Part shown: piece by piece, positions 21,188 through 27,105 of the stretch | How the letters are laid out: every line of letters starts with the position of its first letter | Position numbering within the stretch: the stretch's first letter is position 1 | DNA from: Limisphaerales bacterium | GTDB taxonomy: Bacteria; Verrucomicrobiota; Verrucomicrobiia; Limisphaerales; UBA11358 | Direction: 5' to 3' | Length of the DNA stretch: 44,700 nucleotides | Assembly: GCA_003139955.1 (NCBI GenBank) | Contig: PLHK01000085.1 | Location: 1-44,700 of the forward strand | Translations under genes and position numbers: made by a program | The notes under the pieces: model-generated | What the model was told of the DNA's origin: nothing | The model's database searches: none | What the model saw: only the letters and a program-made list of their open reading frames with translations

Positions 21188-22264
21188 ATGAAAAAACTAC
21201 GAATCGGATTCTTAAGTACCGCCGGCATCGGCAAAAAAAACTGGAAGGCGATTTCTCATTCCGGCAACTGCGTCGTGGTCGCCGTCGCCAGCCGCGATGT
21301 TCAGAAAAGCCTTGAATTCATTGATGAATGTCAGCGCGAATTCACCTTCGCAGAAACGCCGCGCGCGTTTGGAAGCTACGAGGAATTAATTGCGTCGCCC
21401 GAAGTTGACGCGATTTATTTTCCGTTGCCGACCGGCCTGCGTAAAGATTTTGTCATCCGCGCTGCGAAAAATCGGAAGCACATTCTCTGCGAAAAACCGT
21501 GCGCCGTGGACGCGCGCGAGCTGGACGAAATGCTGGCCGCGTGCGCCAAAAATAAAGTGCAGTTCATGGACGGCGTGATGTTCATGCACAGCCCGCGCCT
21601 GAAAAAAGTCCGCGAAATTTTGGACGATGGCAAAAGTATCGGGCACATCCGCCGGATTTCCTCGGCGTTCAGTTTTTATGTTGGCGAGGATTTTTTCCAG
21701 TCGAACATTCGGGCGAACGGCGCGCTTGAACCCACCGGCTGTCTCGGCGATCTGGGCTGGTATTCCATCCGTTTCGCGCTCTGGACGATGAACTGGCAAT
21801 TGCCACGTGCCGTTGGCGGAAAAATTCTTTCGCAGTCCGCTGATTTACCGAAACGTCCGTCCGCACCGACGGAATTTTCCGGCGAACTGTTTTTTGACGG
21901 CGGCGTTTCGGTGGAATTTTATTCCTCGTTTCGCGCCGCCAAACAGCAATGGGTTCATGTCAGCGGCCAAAAAGGCTGGTTGCGACTGCCGGATTTCGTT
22001 CATCCATTTGACAGCTATGAACCGGCGTTCGAGGTGAATGAAAAATTCATCACCGTCGCCAGCGAGGTAAAATGTCCGCCGGGCGTTGACCCGTTTCCGC
22101 AAGGTCACGCGACCGCGCAAGACACGCGGATGTGGCGTAATTTTGCAAACCAGATTGCGTCCGGCAAACTCAACGAAGACTGGCCGATGTGGTCGCTACA
22201 GACGCAAAAAGTTTTGGACGCGTGCCACGAGGCAGCGCGGCGCGGCGCGATCGTTGAACTGTGA
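21188..22264 (+). CDS. Gfo/Idh/MocA family oxidoreductase
   Basis: NAD(P)-dependent dehydrogenase family, 358 residues. The N-terminal Rossmann domain begins RIGFLSTAGIGKKNWKAI, with AVASRD closing the second strand. The EKP motif is at residues 102-104 (HILCEKPCAVD) and its lysine is normally involved in catalysis. The C-terminal alpha/beta domain includes NGALEPTGCLGDLGWYSIRF, the usual GALxDxGxY-type segment containing a catalytic-region aspartate. The substrate, probably a sugar or sugar-like polyol, cannot be predicted. The last codons (VEL, stop) run into an intergenic repeat. Confidence 0.93.
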   Translation: MKKLRIGFLSTAGIGKKNWKAISHSGNCVVVAVASRDVQKSLEFIDECQREFTFAETPRAFGSYEELIASPEVDAIYFPLPTGLRKDFVIRAAKNRKHILCEKPCAVDARELDEMLAACAKNKVQFMDGVMFMHSPRLKKVREILDDGKSIGHIRRISSAFSFYVGEDFFQSNIRANGALEPTGCLGDLGWYSIRFALWTMNWQLPRAVGGKILSQSADLPKRPSAPTEFSGELFFDGGVSVEFYSSFRAAKQQWVHVSGQKGWLRLPDFVHPFDSYEPAFEVNEKFITVASEVKCPPGVDPFPQGHATAQDTRMWRNFANQIASGKLNEDWPMWSLQTQKVLDACHEAARRGAIVEL

Positions 22265-22320
22265 ACTGTTGAATTGTCCCATCGCTAGCGGTTCACGATT
22301 TAACCATTTAACAATTCAAC
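22253..22320. repeat. GTTGAACTG/GTTGAATTG repeat and inverted repeat
   Basis: Short direct repeats (GTTGAACTG, TGAACTG, TTGAATTG) cover 22253-22277, and a perfect 10-bp inverted repeat joins 22268-22277 (GTTGAATTGT) to 22311-22320. The element spans the end of the oxidoreductase gene and most of the gap before tyrA. There is no T-run, so it is not an obvious intrinsic terminator. Confidence 0.6.
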
Positions 22321-22341
22321 AAATAACGTTATTCTCCGCGC

Positions 22342-23226
22342 GTGCAATTTCGGAAAATCACCATCATCGGCGTCGGTTTGCTCGGCGGCTCCATCGGACT
22401 CGCTGCACGGAAAAATCGCGTCGCCAAGGAAATTGCCGGATTCGTCCGCAGCCAAAAAAATATTTCCGACTGCGAAAAATTTGGCGCAACGGATTTCGCC
22501 ACGACCGATTTGCTCGCCGCCGTTTCTAATTCTGATTTGATCATTCTTTGCACGCCACTCGCACAAATGCTTCCGCTCGCAAAACAATTTCTGCCCGCGC
22601 TCAAACGCGACGCGATCGTAACCGATGTTGGCAGCGTGAAAGCGGGCGTGGTGCGTGAACTGGAATCGTTCGTCCAAAAATCCGGCGCGCATTTTGTCGG
22701 CAGCCATCCGATGGCCGGCGCGGAAAAAACCGGCGTCGCCGCCGCGCGCGAAAATCTTTTTAAAAACGCTGTCTGCGTTTTGACGCCGACCAAAAAATCC
22801 AGCGCCGCTGCCGTCCGCAAATTGGAACAATTCTGGAAATCGCTCGGCGCGCGCGTTTTGAAACTGGCCGCCGCGCAGCACGATTTGCTCGTCAGCCGTT
22901 CCAGCCATTTGCCGCACGTCGTCGCCACGACGCTGGCGAATTTGGTTTTGAATCCGGCCAATCCGAAAACGCAGGCGCAACTTTGCGCGACCGGTTTCCG
23001 CGACACGACGCGCATCGCGTCCGGCTCGCCCGAGATGTGGCGCGACATCGCGCTGGCCAACCGTAAAAATATTTCACGGTCGGTGGATGCGTTTGTGGCG
23101 GAACTTAAAAAATTCCAAAGCGCGCTCAAAAGTGGCGAGGCAAACGCCCTTGAAAAAATCTTTGCGACGGCCAAATCGCGTCGCGACAACTGGTGCGCGA
23201 AAGGCGGTTCAACTTCGTCGGAATAA
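22342..23226 (+). CDS. tyrA: Prephenate/arogenate dehydrogenase
   Basis: Oxidative decarboxylation in tyrosine biosynthesis, 294 residues from a GTG start. The N-terminal NAD(P) site is IIGVGLLGGSIGLAARK (residues 8-24). The catalytic-region histidine H122 lies in FVGSHPMAGAEKTG, and DVGSVKAGVV and FRDTTRIASGSPEMWRDI are further family landmarks. No ACT or chorismate mutase domain is attached. Its stop codon overlaps the aroA ATG by one base (TAATG), so the two aromatic genes are translationally coupled. Confidence 0.95.
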   Translation: MQFRKITIIGVGLLGGSIGLAARKNRVAKEIAGFVRSQKNISDCEKFGATDFATTDLLAAVSNSDLIILCTPLAQMLPLAKQFLPALKRDAIVTDVGSVKAGVVRELESFVQKSGAHFVGSHPMAGAEKTGVAAARENLFKNAVCVLTPTKKSSAAAVRKLEQFWKSLGARVLKLAAAQHDLLVSRSSHLPHVVATTLANLVLNPANPKTQAQLCATGFRDTTRIASGSPEMWRDIALANRKNISRSVDAFVAELKKFQSALKSGEANALEKIFATAKSRRDNWCAKGGSTSSE

Positions 23227-24701
23227 TGGCGCTTCCCGAACTCATCGAAATCGTCCCGCTCTCCAAGCCCGTGCGCGCGGAAATCACCGTGCCCGGCTCG
23301 AAGAGCATCACGAACCGCGCGCTGATCCTCGCCGCGCTCGCGGACGGCGAAGTCACGCTCACCGGCGCGCTGTGGAGCGAGGACACGCAGATCATGGTCG
23401 AGTGTTTGCAGAAATTGGGATTTGAAATCCGCGTCGAAAATGACACCGCAGAATTTTGCAATCGCACGATCACGGTCAAAGGTCTCGGCGGAAAAATTCC
23501 GAACGCGGGAACGGCGGAAAAACCACTGGAACTGTTTGTGGGCAATGCGGGGACGGCGGCGCGGTTTTTGTCGGCGTTCGTTTGTCTGGGCGATGGCGTT
23601 TATCGTTTGAGCGGCGTGGCGCGGATGCACGAACGTCCGCAGGCGGCGCTGTTTTCGGCGTTGCGCGAACTCGGCTATCACGTCGAATCGGAAAATGGCA
23701 ATGACAAGTTGCCGGTGGTAATTAGCCACAGAGACACAGAGAACACAGAGGAAAAAAAATCCGGCTCTGTGTCCTCTGCGTCTCTGTGGCAAAATAAATG
23801 TAAAGTCAGCATTGAAAAAAGTTCGCAGTTCGCGTCGGCGCTGTTGCTTTGCGCGAAGCTTGGGAATTGGAAAGTTGAAGTCGTTGGCGAGAACGCGGAG
23901 GAATCGCCTTATGTAGTAATGACAACTCGATTAATCATGTCGTTTCCGAAAAATGGAGGCACATTTCAAATTGAACCGGACACTTCAAGTGGAAGTTATT
24001 TTTGGGCGGCGGGCAAGTTTGCAAAAAAAGACTTTGTAAAATCTGATGAACCTAAAATAGCTGGCAAAAATCGCCACAGAAAATCTGTGATCGTTAATAA
24101 TTGGCCGGAGTATGGCTGGCAAATTGACGAGGATTTTCCAAAAGTAATAGCGTCCAATTCTGCTTTAAGATTTGGGCTTATGTTAGCAAAAGCAAACGAC
24201 CCGGCTGAAGCAAAACAGCCTGAAGAATTTCAAAAATTTCTTCAAGAGCTTCCGCCGGAATCTGAAATTTCTCGGAAGCATGATTTGGGCGACAGCATCA
24301 TGACGGCAATTATTTTGGCACCGTTTTCAATTAAGCCAATTCATTTTACCGACCTTGGCCGTTTGCGCGTCCAAGAAACCGAGCGCGTCGTCGCGTTGCG
24401 GACGGAGTTGACCAAGTGCGGCGCGAAAGTAGTCGAGGAAGGCGACACGCTGACGGTCTGGCCGTCGCCGTTGCACGGCGCAGAGATTGAGACCTACAAC
24501 GACCATCGCATGGCGATGTGTTTTGCGATTCTGGGATTGAAAGTTCCCGGCATAAAAATTAAAAATCCCGCCTGCGTGAAAAAGACGTTCCCGAATTTTT
24601 TCCAAAAGCTGGCCGCGCAACCGCCGCACGGTTTGGGCGCGACGATTATAGACGCGAAGTCGGGGCGGAAATTGACGCATGAAGAGTTGTTTGCTGAATA
24701 G
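23226..24701 (+). CDS. aroA: 3-phosphoshikimate 1-carboxyvinyltransferase (EPSP synthase) with in-frame repeat insertion
   Basis: Transfers enolpyruvate from PEP to shikimate 3-phosphate. The ATG at 23226 overlaps the tyrA stop. The protein is 491 residues, long for the family (about 430). All landmarks are present: PGSKSITNRALILAALA, GNAGTAARFL, HERPQAAL, SSQFASALLL (from S199), EPDTSSGSYF, DLGDSIMTA, RLRVQETERV, YNDHRMAM and KKTFPNFF. The extra length has two sources: a 66-bp palindromic repeat read in frame as residues about 167-188 (SHRDTENTEEKKSG and following), and a longer segment before SRKHDLGDS. The middle part (about 23905-24345) is much more AT-rich than the ends. It is likely functional, since every active-site motif is intact. 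Confidence 0.95.
   Translation: MALPELIEIVPLSKPVRAEITVPGSKSITNRALILAALADGEVTLTGALWSEDTQIMVECLQKLGFEIRVENDTAEFCNRTITVKGLGGKIPNAGTAEKPLELFVGNAGTAARFLSAFVCLGDGVYRLSGVARMHERPQAALFSALRELGYHVESENGNDKLPVVISHRDTENTEEKKSGSVSSASLWQNKCKVSIEKSSQFASALLLCAKLGNWKVEVVGENAEESPYVVMTTRLIMSFPKNGGTFQIEPDTSSGSYFWAAGKFAKKDFVKSDEPKIAGKNRHRKSVIVNNWPEYGWQIDEDFPKVIASNSALRFGLMLAKANDPAEAKQPEEFQKFLQELPPESEISRKHDLGDSIMTAIILAPFSIKPIHFTDLGRLRVQETERVVALRTELTKCGAKVVEEGDTLTVWPSPLHGAEIETYNDHRMAMCFAILGLKVPGIKIKNPACVKKTFPNFFQKLAAQPPHGLGATIIDAKSGRKLTHEELFAE
23725..23790. repeat. Palindromic repeat (CACAGAG type) inserted in frame in aroA
   Basis: Arms 23725-23750 and 23765-23790 pair at 24 of 26 positions with a 14-nt A-rich loop. 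Each arm has three CACAGAG units. The element is 66 bp, exactly 22 codons, and removal would leave PVVIKNKCKVSIE in frame. No target-site duplication is obvious. This type of sequence is expected in intergenic positions, so a coding copy is notable. Confidence 0.88.
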
Positions 24702-24759
24702 ACACGAATTTCACGAATTAACACGGATTCAATTTGTGAAAATTAGTGTAATTCGTGTC
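24701..24759. repeat. Palindromic repeat (CACGAATT type) between aroA and cmk
   Basis: Arms 24701-24729 and 24731-24759 pair at 23 of 29 positions around a single central base. The arms are built from CACGAATT-like units. The element begins on the last base of the aroA stop and ends inside the first codons of cmk, covering the whole intergenic space and including the GTG at 24755. Confidence 0.8.
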
Positions 24760-25441
24760 AGAAATTTTTTTAAATTTGAAAAAACATCCGATTGTCATAG
24801 CGATTGACGGCACGAGCGCGAGCGGCAAGAGCACGAACGCCAAGCTCGTGGCGAAGGCGCTCGGCTACGTCTATGTGGACACGGGCGCGATGTATCGCAC
24901 GCTGGCGTGGCATTGCCTGCAAAAGCGCGTGGATGTCCACGATGCGAAGGTGGTCGCCGCGCTTTGCCGCAAATGGAAAACGTCGCTCGAATGCGTGGAG
25001 AAAAATCATCTGCGCGCAGTGCATCTGCTGGTTGAAAATTATTTCCCGGAACAGGAAATCCGCACTTCGGAAGTCAGCGCCGCCACGTCGGTCATCGCCG
25101 CCGTGCCGAAGGTGCGCGATTGGATGAAGAAAAAACAGCGCGAGTGCATCCAGTTCGGCAATCTCGTGATGGAAGGCCGCGACATCGGCACGAATGTTTT
25201 TCCTGAAACAGATTTCAAATTTTATCTCGACGCGAAGTTGGAAGAGCGCACCGCGCGCCGCGCCGCTGATGGGGTTCACGAAAATCTCGCCGCGCGCGAT
25301 TTGCGCGACAGCCAGCGGGCGAGCGCGCCGCTGATGATCGCGCTCGGCGCAAAGGTCATCAACAATTCCGCCATGACTTCCGAGCAAACGAGCCAGTTGC
25401 TGTTGGAAGAAATCCGCAGACTGATGCCGGTTGAAAAATGA
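24755..25441 (+). CDS. cmk: Cytidylate kinase
   Basis: Phosphorylates CMP and dCMP. In the 228 residues the P-loop is GTSASGKS (19-26), followed by YVDTGAMYRTLAW. The CMP-binding and lid parts include VMEGRDIGTNVFPETDFKFYLDA and the arginine-rich ERTARRAADG. Two starts are possible: the GTG at 24755, which lies inside the right arm of a palindromic repeat, or the TTG at 24776, which would give MKKHPIVIAIDG, closer to family N-termini. Its last codons overlap the plsC start (ATGA), consistent with the common cmk-plsC coupling. Confidence 0.95.
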   Translation: MSEIFLNLKKHPIVIAIDGTSASGKSTNAKLVAKALGYVYVDTGAMYRTLAWHCLQKRVDVHDAKVVAALCRKWKTSLECVEKNHLRAVHLLVENYFPEQEIRTSEVSAATSVIAAVPKVRDWMKKKQRECIQFGNLVMEGRDIGTNVFPETDFKFYLDAKLEERTARRAADGVHENLAARDLRDSQRASAPLMIALGAKVINNSAMTSEQTSQLLLEEIRRLMPVEK

Positions 25442-26076
25442 ATCCGTCTTATCGCATCGGCTGGATTGGTTTCCGCGTGATGTATGCCACTTATTTCCGC
25501 TGGCGCGTGTTCGGCGCGGAAAATGTGCCGCAAACCGGCGGTGTGATTTTGGCCTCAAACCACGCGAGCTTTCTTGATCCGCCGCTGGTCGGCGCGGGAT
25601 TGAATCGCGACATCAATTATCTCGCGCGCGAAAGCCTGTTTCGTTTTCCCGGCATCGGCGCGCTGTTGCGTTCGTGGAATTCCGTCCCGGTGGATCGCGA
25701 TGGTGGCGGCGCGCGCGGTTTGAAAATTATTTTGGAACGCCTGCTGGCGGGCGGCGCGATTATTTTGTTTCCCGAAGGCACGCGCACGCCGGACGGCCAA
25801 TTGCAGCCGGCGCGTTCGGGCATCGGACTGACGGTCATCAAATCCGATGCGCCCGTCGTGCCGGTGCGCGTGTTCGGGACATTTGACGCTTACGGAAAAA
25901 ATCATAAATTTCCGCGTCCGTATCGCGTCGCGGTGAAATATGGCGAGCCGTTGCATTTTGAAAAATTGCGCGCCGAGGCGAAAAACTGCGACAAGGCGCG
26001 GCTGAAGGAAATTTACCAGCAAGTCGCCGACGAAATCATGGCGGCGATTGCGAAGCTGGAACCGAAGGCGGGTTAA
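25438..26076 (+). CDS. plsC: 1-acyl-sn-glycerol-3-phosphate acyltransferase
   Basis: Acylates lysophosphatidic acid to phosphatidic acid at the inner membrane. The 212-residue protein has the catalytic HX4D motif as NHASFLD (H42, D47) and the substrate-binding FPEGTR at 111-116. A further conserved block is SWNSVPVDRDGGGARGLK. The N-terminus (IGWIGFRVMYATYF) is amphipathic or membrane-associated. It is translationally coupled to cmk. The stop codon overlaps that of the convergent DUF4404 gene. Confidence 0.94.
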   Translation: MNPSYRIGWIGFRVMYATYFRWRVFGAENVPQTGGVILASNHASFLDPPLVGAGLNRDINYLARESLFRFPGIGALLRSWNSVPVDRDGGGARGLKIILERLLAGGAIILFPEGTRTPDGQLQPARSGIGLTVIKSDAPVVPVRVFGTFDAYGKNHKFPRPYRVAVKYGEPLHFEKLRAEAKNCDKARLKEIYQQVADEIMAAIAKLEPKAG

Positions 26077-26405
26077 ATTCCCAAGTCCGACAGCGTCTTG
26101 CTGATGGAATTAACAATCTGGACGAGGCGCGGATGTGATTGCTCAATGCCGTCCACCGACGAACGCAAACCTTGATTCGACAATTCGCGCAATTGCGGAT
26201 TCGGTTCCGTGCGCGTGGCTTCGTGCGCGGAGAGCTTGGCGAAATTAGCGATGCTGTCGGCCTGTTCGCCATGCGTTTCAGAAAGTTTGGCGACTTCCGT
26301 CTTCAACGTGCCGAGCAGTTTCAGCAGTTCGGCCTTGTGTTCGGCGCTGACAGATTCCGCGCCGCCGATTTTCGCCTCAATCTCGCTGATGGTTTTTTCA
26401 ATCAT
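26073..26405 (-). CDS. DUF4404 family protein
   Basis: The 110-residue, probably all-helical soluble protein matches the DUF4404 pattern: a start with IEKTISEIEAKI, a central SIANFAKLSAHEATRTEPNP and the terminal SHPRLVQIVNSISKTLSDLGI. The function of the family is unknown. It lies 43 bases downstream of tmk on the same strand and overlaps the end of plsC by 4 bases on the other strand. Confidence 0.8.
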   Translation of the reverse strand: MIEKTISEIEAKIGGAESVSAEHKAELLKLLGTLKTEVAKLSETHGEQADSIANFAKLSAHEATRTEPNPQLRELSNQGLRSSVDGIEQSHPRLVQIVNSISKTLSDLGI

Positions 26406-26448
26406 GTCAAAAATAACTTACTCGGCCATTTGAATCCGGCAAACAAAA

Positions 26449-27105
26449 TCACCAGCGCCCAACCTTGGGCAGGCGCGACTGGACAATTTCCCAAATCGTT
26501 TTGCAGACGGCATCCACCGCCTGCGCGCCGTTGATAAACTTCACGCGCTGCGGTTCGCTCGCGGCGATGACGCCGTAGCCGTGCGCGACGCGCTCGAAAA
26601 ATTTCCGGTCGGCCTCCTCGATGCGGTCGCGCACAAATGGCAGCGTGGACTGCCGCGAGCGCAGCCGCTCGGCGCTGACGTCCGCGGGAACATGAAGGAA
26701 TAAAGTCAAATCCGGCTTTGTTCCGCCGACGGCGAACTCGATGACCGATTTCACTTTTTCCAAATCCAGTTCGCGGCCGAAGCCTTGATACGCGATCGTG
26801 GAATCGTAAAAGCGGTCGCACAAAACAATTTCGCCGGCGGCGAGCGCGGGGCGGATGATTTCGCGGACGATTTGCGCGCGGCTGGCGTTCATCATTAGCA
26901 ACTCGGCCTCGGCGGTCATCGCCGCGTTGTTCGGGCTGTGCTTGAGCGTGTGGCGGATTTCCTCGCCGATGGGCGTGCCGCCCGGCTCGCGCAACGCGCG
27001 CACGCGATGGCTGATGGCGCGCAACTGCCTCGCGAGCAGTTCAATCTGCGTGGACTTGCCGCAGCCTTCCGTGCCTTCAAACGTGATGAACAGGCCTTTC
27101 GCCAT
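26449..27105 (-). CDS. tmk: Thymidylate kinase
   Basis: Phosphorylates dTMP to dTDP. In the 218 residues the P-loop GTEGCGKS is at 11-18, the REPGGTPIGEEIR segment binds the nucleotide, and DRFYDSTIAYQGFGR (from D97) is the DRX signature. The lid region is SAERLRSRQS. Length is normal. It lies downstream of cysS on the same strand with about 40 bases between them. The usual neighbour holB is absent. Confidence 0.96.
   Translation of the reverse strand: MAKGLFITFEGTEGCGKSTQIELLARQLRAISHRVRALREPGGTPIGEEIRHTLKHSPNNAAMTAEAELLMMNASRAQIVREIIRPALAAGEIVLCDRFYDSTIAYQGFGRELDLEKVKSVIEFAVGGTKPDLTLFLHVPADVSAERLRSRQSTLPFVRDRIEEADRKFFERVAHGYGVIAASEPQRVKFINGAQAVDAVCKTIWEIVQSRLPKVGRW

Follow-up and report, generated by a model that had tools for sequence, protein, structure and literature searches.

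The window, that is, the whole stretch of 44,700 nucleotides that was analysed, belongs to a draft genome in 174 contigs (G000, 91.7% complete) whose nearest named relatives are found in Verrucomicrobia subdivision 3. On its forward strand it holds aroA, the gene for EPSP synthase, and inside this gene a palindrome of CACAGAG-type units is found in frame, at a loop which in related species holds other kinds of repeat or none. The features concerned are the following.

23226..24701, + strand: aroA (EPSP synthase), with an open frame across the insert and matches to PF00275 and TIGR01356; the ATG at 23226 is the probable start, from the alignment of relatives
23725..23790, + strand: CACAGAG-family palindrome, 66 nt, from the sequence, the inverted-repeat listing, genome repeats, fold and model
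23725..23750, + strand: left arm, GCCACAGAG-A-CACAGAG-AA-CACAGAG, from the sequence and the inverted-repeat listing
23765..23790, + strand: right arm, CTCTGTG-TC-CTCTGCG-T-CTCTGTGGC, from the same two sources
23725..23790, + strand: the palindrome as the predicted tip of a beta-hairpin, residues about 166-187 counting from the Ala at 23229, from the AlphaFold2 model
23724..23804, + strand: the AroA loop that holds different repeat kinds in relatives, with 27 residues here and 11-13 where uninserted

The palindrome within aroA

The two arms pair at 24 of their 26 positions by hand count, each of them consisting of three CACAGAG-type units, and in the extended arms (23719-23750 and 23765-23796) 88% of the positions are paired. 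It is the strongest of the nine inverted repeats listed for the window (at least 18 nt, within 200 nt). The RNA of 23719-23796 folds at -44.2 kcal/mol, compared with -13.66 +/- 2.65 kcal/mol in 200 shuffles, none of which equalled it (z -11.5), and is therefore a stable hairpin of the kind that characterizes protein-coding palindromic repeats. When GCCACAGAGACACAGAG was searched with up to three mismatches, the only two matches in the window were the two arms, against an expectation of 0.01, and Rfam gave no match over 22000-26500. The first nucleotide of the element falls within a codon, AGC at 23724, as its second base; the element contains no stop and is translated as SHRDTENTEEKKSGSVSSASLW, with SSQF following ten residues later. 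Its ends have the form T/A-GCCAC...GTGGC-A/T, carrying neither a GTAG nor a CGTC tag. The in-frame palindrome described in a preliminary account of this DNA is thus confirmed as real, and the CACAGAG units of its arms and its position ten residues before SSQF are borne out by sequence and translation. The same account held that deleting the 66 bp would restore a plausible junction, which is not the case: what is left differs from the loop of relatives, since a loop of 27 residues instead of 11-13 amounts to a net gain of about 16 codons, with about six ancestral codons gone.

Outside the insert, AroA looks like an intact enzyme at the level of its sequence. It scores 250 bits against PF00275, above the cut-off, and 272 bits against TIGR01356, slightly under the cut-off of 287. 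The 48 invariant columns of 54 aligned AroA proteins, SSQ among them, are all present in the window protein (by definition, as it is part of the alignment), in agreement with the earlier statement that the other EPSP synthase motifs are intact. An AlphaFold2 model built from these 54 sequences reached a mean pLDDT of 89.6 and a pTM of 0.89, and placed the insert between the strands 163-166 and 190-194, with a mean pLDDT of 53 for residues 171-180 and 63 for residues 181-190. This points to an exposed beta-hairpin tip, modelled with low confidence. A structure prediction from the single sequence was poor (pLDDT 43.4) and was discarded. The insert is probably translated, and AroA has probably retained its activity with it.

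Repeats in the AroA loop and in other proteins

The CACAGAG palindrome is a dispersed repeat. A query of 78 nt gave 43 alignments in the window's own genome, a palindrome being counted twice, once for each strand. Besides the window's own, these merge into 19 places at E up to 0.06, or 13 at E up to 1e-4; the weakest of the 19 may be other repeats. Twenty places, the window's included, were inspected by eye. The majority fall outside recognisable genes, in several cases with a start codon only a few bases downstream; some are crossed by open frames at the N-terminus, and two are in frame within known proteins, namely AroA and peptidase U32. Copies are therefore present both inside and outside genes, as in other protein-coding palindromic repeats. 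The preliminary claim that this lineage has a protein-invading palindrome stands as to the dispersed repeat and its second in-frame copy, and falls as to a clean insertion and as to one palindrome in one enzyme; its interpretation is supported in this wider form. Of the 49 genomes of the genus, 19 contain the pattern CCACAGAGNCACAGAGNNCACAGAG, as do 11 of the 387 in a phylum set, and its reversed control gave no match in either set. A protein search with the element returned few recognisable coding cases besides aroA (judged by eye); many copies were situated directly 5' of genes. Translated heptamer-like stretches (QPST/NSQPST; L028, L023) were also seen in the peptidase U32 of the window's genome and in a second protein, which we take to be UbiD-like.

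The loop was compared in 98 distinct AroA sequences, obtained from 113 Verrucomicrobia loci after removal of 14 duplicates and one partial sequence. The search for relatives had covered 80 loci, of which 45 came from outside the Verrucomicrobia and were omitted from the loop count, 11 of them entering alignment A1; G040 gave no match to aroA. In 54 of the 98 proteins the loop is short (11-13 residues, mostly GxGPxxGKC-like), 53 of these fitting the loop pattern and one, L171, being entered as short by eye. The insert is in this way both in frame and absent from homologues. The remaining 44 loops have at least 14 residues, and 36 of them were labelled by eye as repeat-derived, in kinds A to J, with eight left unlabelled. 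Kind A, the CACAGAG palindrome, is found in six proteins, and kind B, a GTAGCAGCCG dimer, in eight, including one degenerate copy and one remnant; three more hold b, which may be a variant of B. The other palindromic kinds are C (3), D (2), E (3), F (2), and H (1), and heptamer arrays make up G (6), I (1), and J (1). A single loop of AroA is in consequence occupied by seven or eight palindromic kinds in addition to heptamer arrays, and different kinds must be separate insertions. A count of strong inverted repeats in the 98 aroA genes gave 18, of which 13 fall in this loop, at reference residues 160-199, and the other five are weaker.

The six CACAGAG inserts all follow one and the same Ile codon, beginning at the same codon and in the same frame, and five of the six are 66 nt long, a uniformity that counts against the reading preferred below. 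Most of the GTAG-tagged inserts join after ATT-TTY-GG or similar. In the relatives' aroA genes, kinds B, C, and E carry the GTAG tag and form inverted dimers, as in L032, L085, and L040. The fetched loci, 1.36 Mb in all, were searched for copies outside aroA, and every kind except F and J had some; for C, D, and E these amount to one or two places, and for H and I they are matches of 24-40 nt. Whole-genome searches confirmed A, B, and E as repeats, family E giving 53 matches in G009. In the same genome, about a dozen E palindromes are arrayed head to tail, one roughly every 85 bp (G009:C59:50560-52211; L379, L383).

The pattern of the AroA loop is the same in two other proteins. Peptidase U32, matched in 42 of the 49 genus genomes, has a linker between PKRW and LIVLVRN which, among 30 loci labelled by eye, holds A in five and B in nine, and in several others a heptamer array or a different palindrome. 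Valyl-tRNA synthetase (ValRS) is matched in 45 of the 49, and 26 of the 30 loci examined fit the pattern used for its loop: ten have a short loop of 12 residues, five hold B or b, one a CCCTCACCC-type palindrome, two other palindromes, two could not be clearly classed, and six share an insert of 30-31 residues that is not repeat-like. The last of these is proline-alanine-rich and occurs in six genomes (L349-L354). A translated B query gave 30 matches, distributed over 18 of the 49 genomes; 23 of the matches lie in open frames of at least 300 residues, which a protein search favours. The proteins spanned by B include ValRS, RecQ (in two genomes, at the same site), an AAA_2 ATPase, and an altronate/galactarate dehydratase.

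The kind of insert does not follow the gene tree. The AroA tree was made with the loop columns removed, from 94 rows (four partial ones being omitted), by a quick method that leaves 43 of its 91 inner branches open; six long unlabelled loops were scored as short and two as X. Insert kind requires 36 changes on it, against a mean of 36.1 in shuffled labels, with 121 of 200 shuffles as low, and the presence or absence of an assigned insert requires 18 changes against 29.5, with none of 500 shuffles as low. Presence is therefore clustered on the tree and kind is not. Reading the 36 label changes as 36 insertions was dropped, as descent or exchange is possible, and for this reason only the number of distinct kinds is taken as a lower bound of separate insertions.

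Relations among copies of one family

The scatter of a single family over the tree could be mostly a matter of descent or exchange, where few entries took place and the loop was later kept, lost, or swapped by short-tract recombination. We regard this as somewhat unlikely, with evidence on both sides. In a partial sample of loci, the best partner of the 27 palindromic aroA inserts is another aroA insert in 18 cases and a copy elsewhere in seven, with two ties, a proportion that would favour descent or exchange and count against the preferred reading. For kind E, the aroA inserts of three genomes resemble one another more than they resemble the other copies of those genomes. Identity between the aroA E inserts of G049, a genome from another family of the order, and G009 is 93%, the best other copies reaching 88-90% in G009 and 83% in G049, which also speaks for descent or exchange. 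In whole-genome searches, the B inserts of aroA match each other at full length and most other copies by one arm, and a full-length B copy in G001 (L263) is 91% identical over 68 nt. Identity along aroA is uneven between close pairs, as recombination of short tracts would predict: L059, which holds B, and L148, with a short loop, share 88% of their DNA outside the loop, and their identity of 0.88 overall dips to 0.76-0.79 in the loop windows. In keeping with this, same-family pairs share 3.2% more DNA in the ten codons upstream of the loop (1 of 300 permutations) and 1.7% more in upstream codons 10-20 (15 of 300).

Against descent or exchange, this flank excess is small and tapers off within 30 codons on the upstream side; in the codons immediately downstream it is +0.9% (46 of 300), with scattered single windows further down being higher (14-21 of 300). 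The host genes of same-family pairs are 66-80% identical, so that homologous exchange between them would be hard. The CACAGAG inserts are about as close to their best genomic copies as to each other. In G010, the aroA insert and the ValRS insert of the same genome are mutually closest (93% over 76 nt, 115 bits, compared with 75 bits for the best other aroA insert), which is as expected from spread and would be the clearest case of it within a genome. The entry of several families into the AroA loop, moreover, is left unexplained by descent or exchange.

In all 69 same-family pairs the inserts are more alike than the third positions of shared-residue codons, and in 66 they also exceed the whole gene in identity, the pairs being non-independent and gaps being excluded. 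An excess over synonymous identity was considered as proof of youth and rejected, as it proves little for family A, given an intergenic control. In aroA, the inserts of this family are 70-92% identical and the gene 70-80%. The control is one CACAGAG copy found at the same place in five genomes (G000, G013, G016, G029, and G035; L010, L208, L191, L215, and L239), adjoining the start of a gene that is presumably valS. The control copies are 72-89% identical and their flanks 82-97%, the pair G013/G029, which is identical throughout, being left out; between G000 and G016, the intergenic copy is 81% identical and the aroA inserts 84%. A place common to five genomes means that copies can be kept by descent, their conservation there being somewhat below that of the flanks, and, with 72-89% identity among them, descent may also account for family A in aroA; these values add to the case for descent or exchange. 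In G013 and G029, which were counted as different species, the element and both 260-nt flanks (L208/L191) are identical, which may be due to very recent transfer or to shared contamination. Other intergenic CACAGAG copies seem, by their flanks, to be common to several genomes, for example L002, L195, L199, and L231.

Known systems and origin of the inserts

In-frame palindromes as such are already known, from Rickettsia and from Opitutus terrae, those of Rickettsia reportedly from papers by Ogata. Cyanobacterial short tandem heptamer repeats (STRR) are also built of seven-base units, and it is by unit length alone that the CACAGAG element, which also occurs as inverted arms, is likened to them. 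According to sections of PMC2229807, dispersed palindromes lie in frame inside conserved proteins of Rickettsia and also between genes, these elements (RPEs) are 105-146 bp long, and the Gmk protein of Rickettsia is made and active with its insert; a reference title there names protein-coding palindromes of Wolbachia. Those sections make no mention of one loop being re-used by several families. The CACAGAG element resembles RPEs in being dispersed, in frame in conserved proteins, and also present between genes, and differs from them in its length of 66 nt, its heptamers, and its phylum. It also lacks the CGTC end that, in portions of PMC3733652, is given as the tag of RPE-4 and RPE-6, and by length and tag it would not be an RPE proper.

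The GTAG REPs are closer to some of the other kinds. Parts of the same article (Di Nocera 2013, PMC3733652) report that intragenic GTAG repeats were most numerous in Opitutus terrae, one of the Verrucomicrobia, suggest loops and linkers as neutral places for REPs, and describe two species of Xanthomonas that have different REPs at nearly the same site of recB. Kinds B, C, and E likewise have GTAG at the start and CTAC at the end, are arranged as inverted dimers, and are found within genes. The transposase domain Y1_Tnp (PF01797) is present in 44 of the 49 genus genomes, and the GTAG-tagged families are probably moved by Y1/RAYT-type transposases. The window's CACAGAG family differs in having no GTAG or CGTC tag and no PF01797 match in its own genome (G000, 91.7% complete), although CGTC REPs also occur without such a transposase, as mentioned in part of PMC3733652. 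In contrast to the known REP case, one loop is here used by many families in dozens of species, with the same pattern in three proteins. A literature search (titles and starts of abstracts of the papers listed, full texts being limited to open-licence ones) found no description of such re-use of one loop across a genus or of an untagged coding CACAGAG family, and CCACAGAG as a text string gave no such repeat among the titles of the matches listed. What this case adds to the known systems is a coding family that has neither tag, together with the genus-wide re-use of single loops by unrelated kinds in three proteins.

We consider it likely that many repeat families insert in these genomes and that their in-frame copies survive in permissive loops. 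The genomes of the group carry many small families (GTAG-tagged REP-like dimers, CACAGAG palindromes, and heptamer arrays), which would be mobile, and selection would act as a filter: a copy within a gene would last only in positions where it keeps the frame open and where the protein can bear some 5 to 50 additional residues. Such permissive sites would be few, consisting of certain loops or linkers, and unrelated families would for that reason come to lie at the same loop in different species. In the window, a 66-nt copy of the dispersed CACAGAG palindrome would have landed in aroA and now lengthen a beta-hairpin turn by a floppy stretch. The copies in 19 of the 49 genus genomes and the wide presence of PF01797 count for this reading, and the lack of a PF01797 match in G000 counts against it. 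Because about six ancestral codons are missing from the filled loop of the window, it has also been considered that a few loops of core enzymes are standing docking places, emptied and refilled by unrelated mobile palindromes or heptamer arrays in the course of a genus's existence, with the loop replaced and not simply inserted into. This is a tentative idea, and a rather unlikely one; if true, it would represent a natural loop-diversifying system for housekeeping proteins.

The remaining alternatives have less in their favour. Insertion itself might be site-biased, the glycine-rich stretch of the loop offering GG ends to GTAG-tagged elements, which would agree with the shared ATT-TTY-GG junctions and with the Ile codon common to the six CACAGAG inserts. 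That the loop DNA is such a preferred target is nevertheless unlikely, as three unrelated loops (in aroA, U32, and ValRS) with different DNA have received both tagged and untagged families. A role in the mRNA, in pausing, stability, or the timing of folding, for which the hairpin would be kept and not only tolerated, could be proposed from its high stability; heptamer arrays without a strong hairpin (G, 6 of 98), or nothing at all (54 of 98), stand at the same place in relatives, which makes such a role improbable. Long loops in 44 of 98 proteins might suggest an ordinary, old part of the enzyme, inherited vertically, and the preliminary account had named this as the outcome that would refute it. 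With the CACAGAG insert in 6 of 98 AroA proteins and a short loop in 54, that refutation fails; the insert DNA matches dispersed genomic repeats, and the kinds differ between near relatives such as L059 and L148 without fitting the gene tree, so that an old part is very improbable. As to an assembly artefact or a pseudogene, the genome is a draft in 174 contigs, but the open frame, the 48 invariant residues, and the presence of this family at the corresponding position of five other assemblies leave this next to no probability.

Some loops of core proteins in this group thus look like shared landing places for small repeats. Coding palindromes have mostly been shown as single cases, whereas AroA, an essential enzyme, provides across about a hundred related species a natural series in which the loop is empty or variously filled. 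This series makes it directly testable whether selfish repeats are tolerated or bring a gain, and reveals the places at which core enzymes take up tens of additional residues.

Further repeats were noted close to the palindrome. AroA has a second highly variable region, residues 265-350 (window about 24020-24280), whose length differs greatly among species and in which no strong inverted repeat was found in the 98 aroA genes. It contains here a hairpin, CCACAGA-AAA-TCTGTG (24074-24089), which may be a remnant of another CACAGA-type repeat. A different palindrome (GACACGAATTTCACGAATTAACACGG / ..AATTCGTGTC, 79% paired) is located between aroA and cmk at 24701-24759, overlapping the final base of the aroA stop codon and holding the likely GTG start of cmk (24755) inside its right arm. 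L145 is the only one of the fetched loci in which another arm of this palindrome was found.
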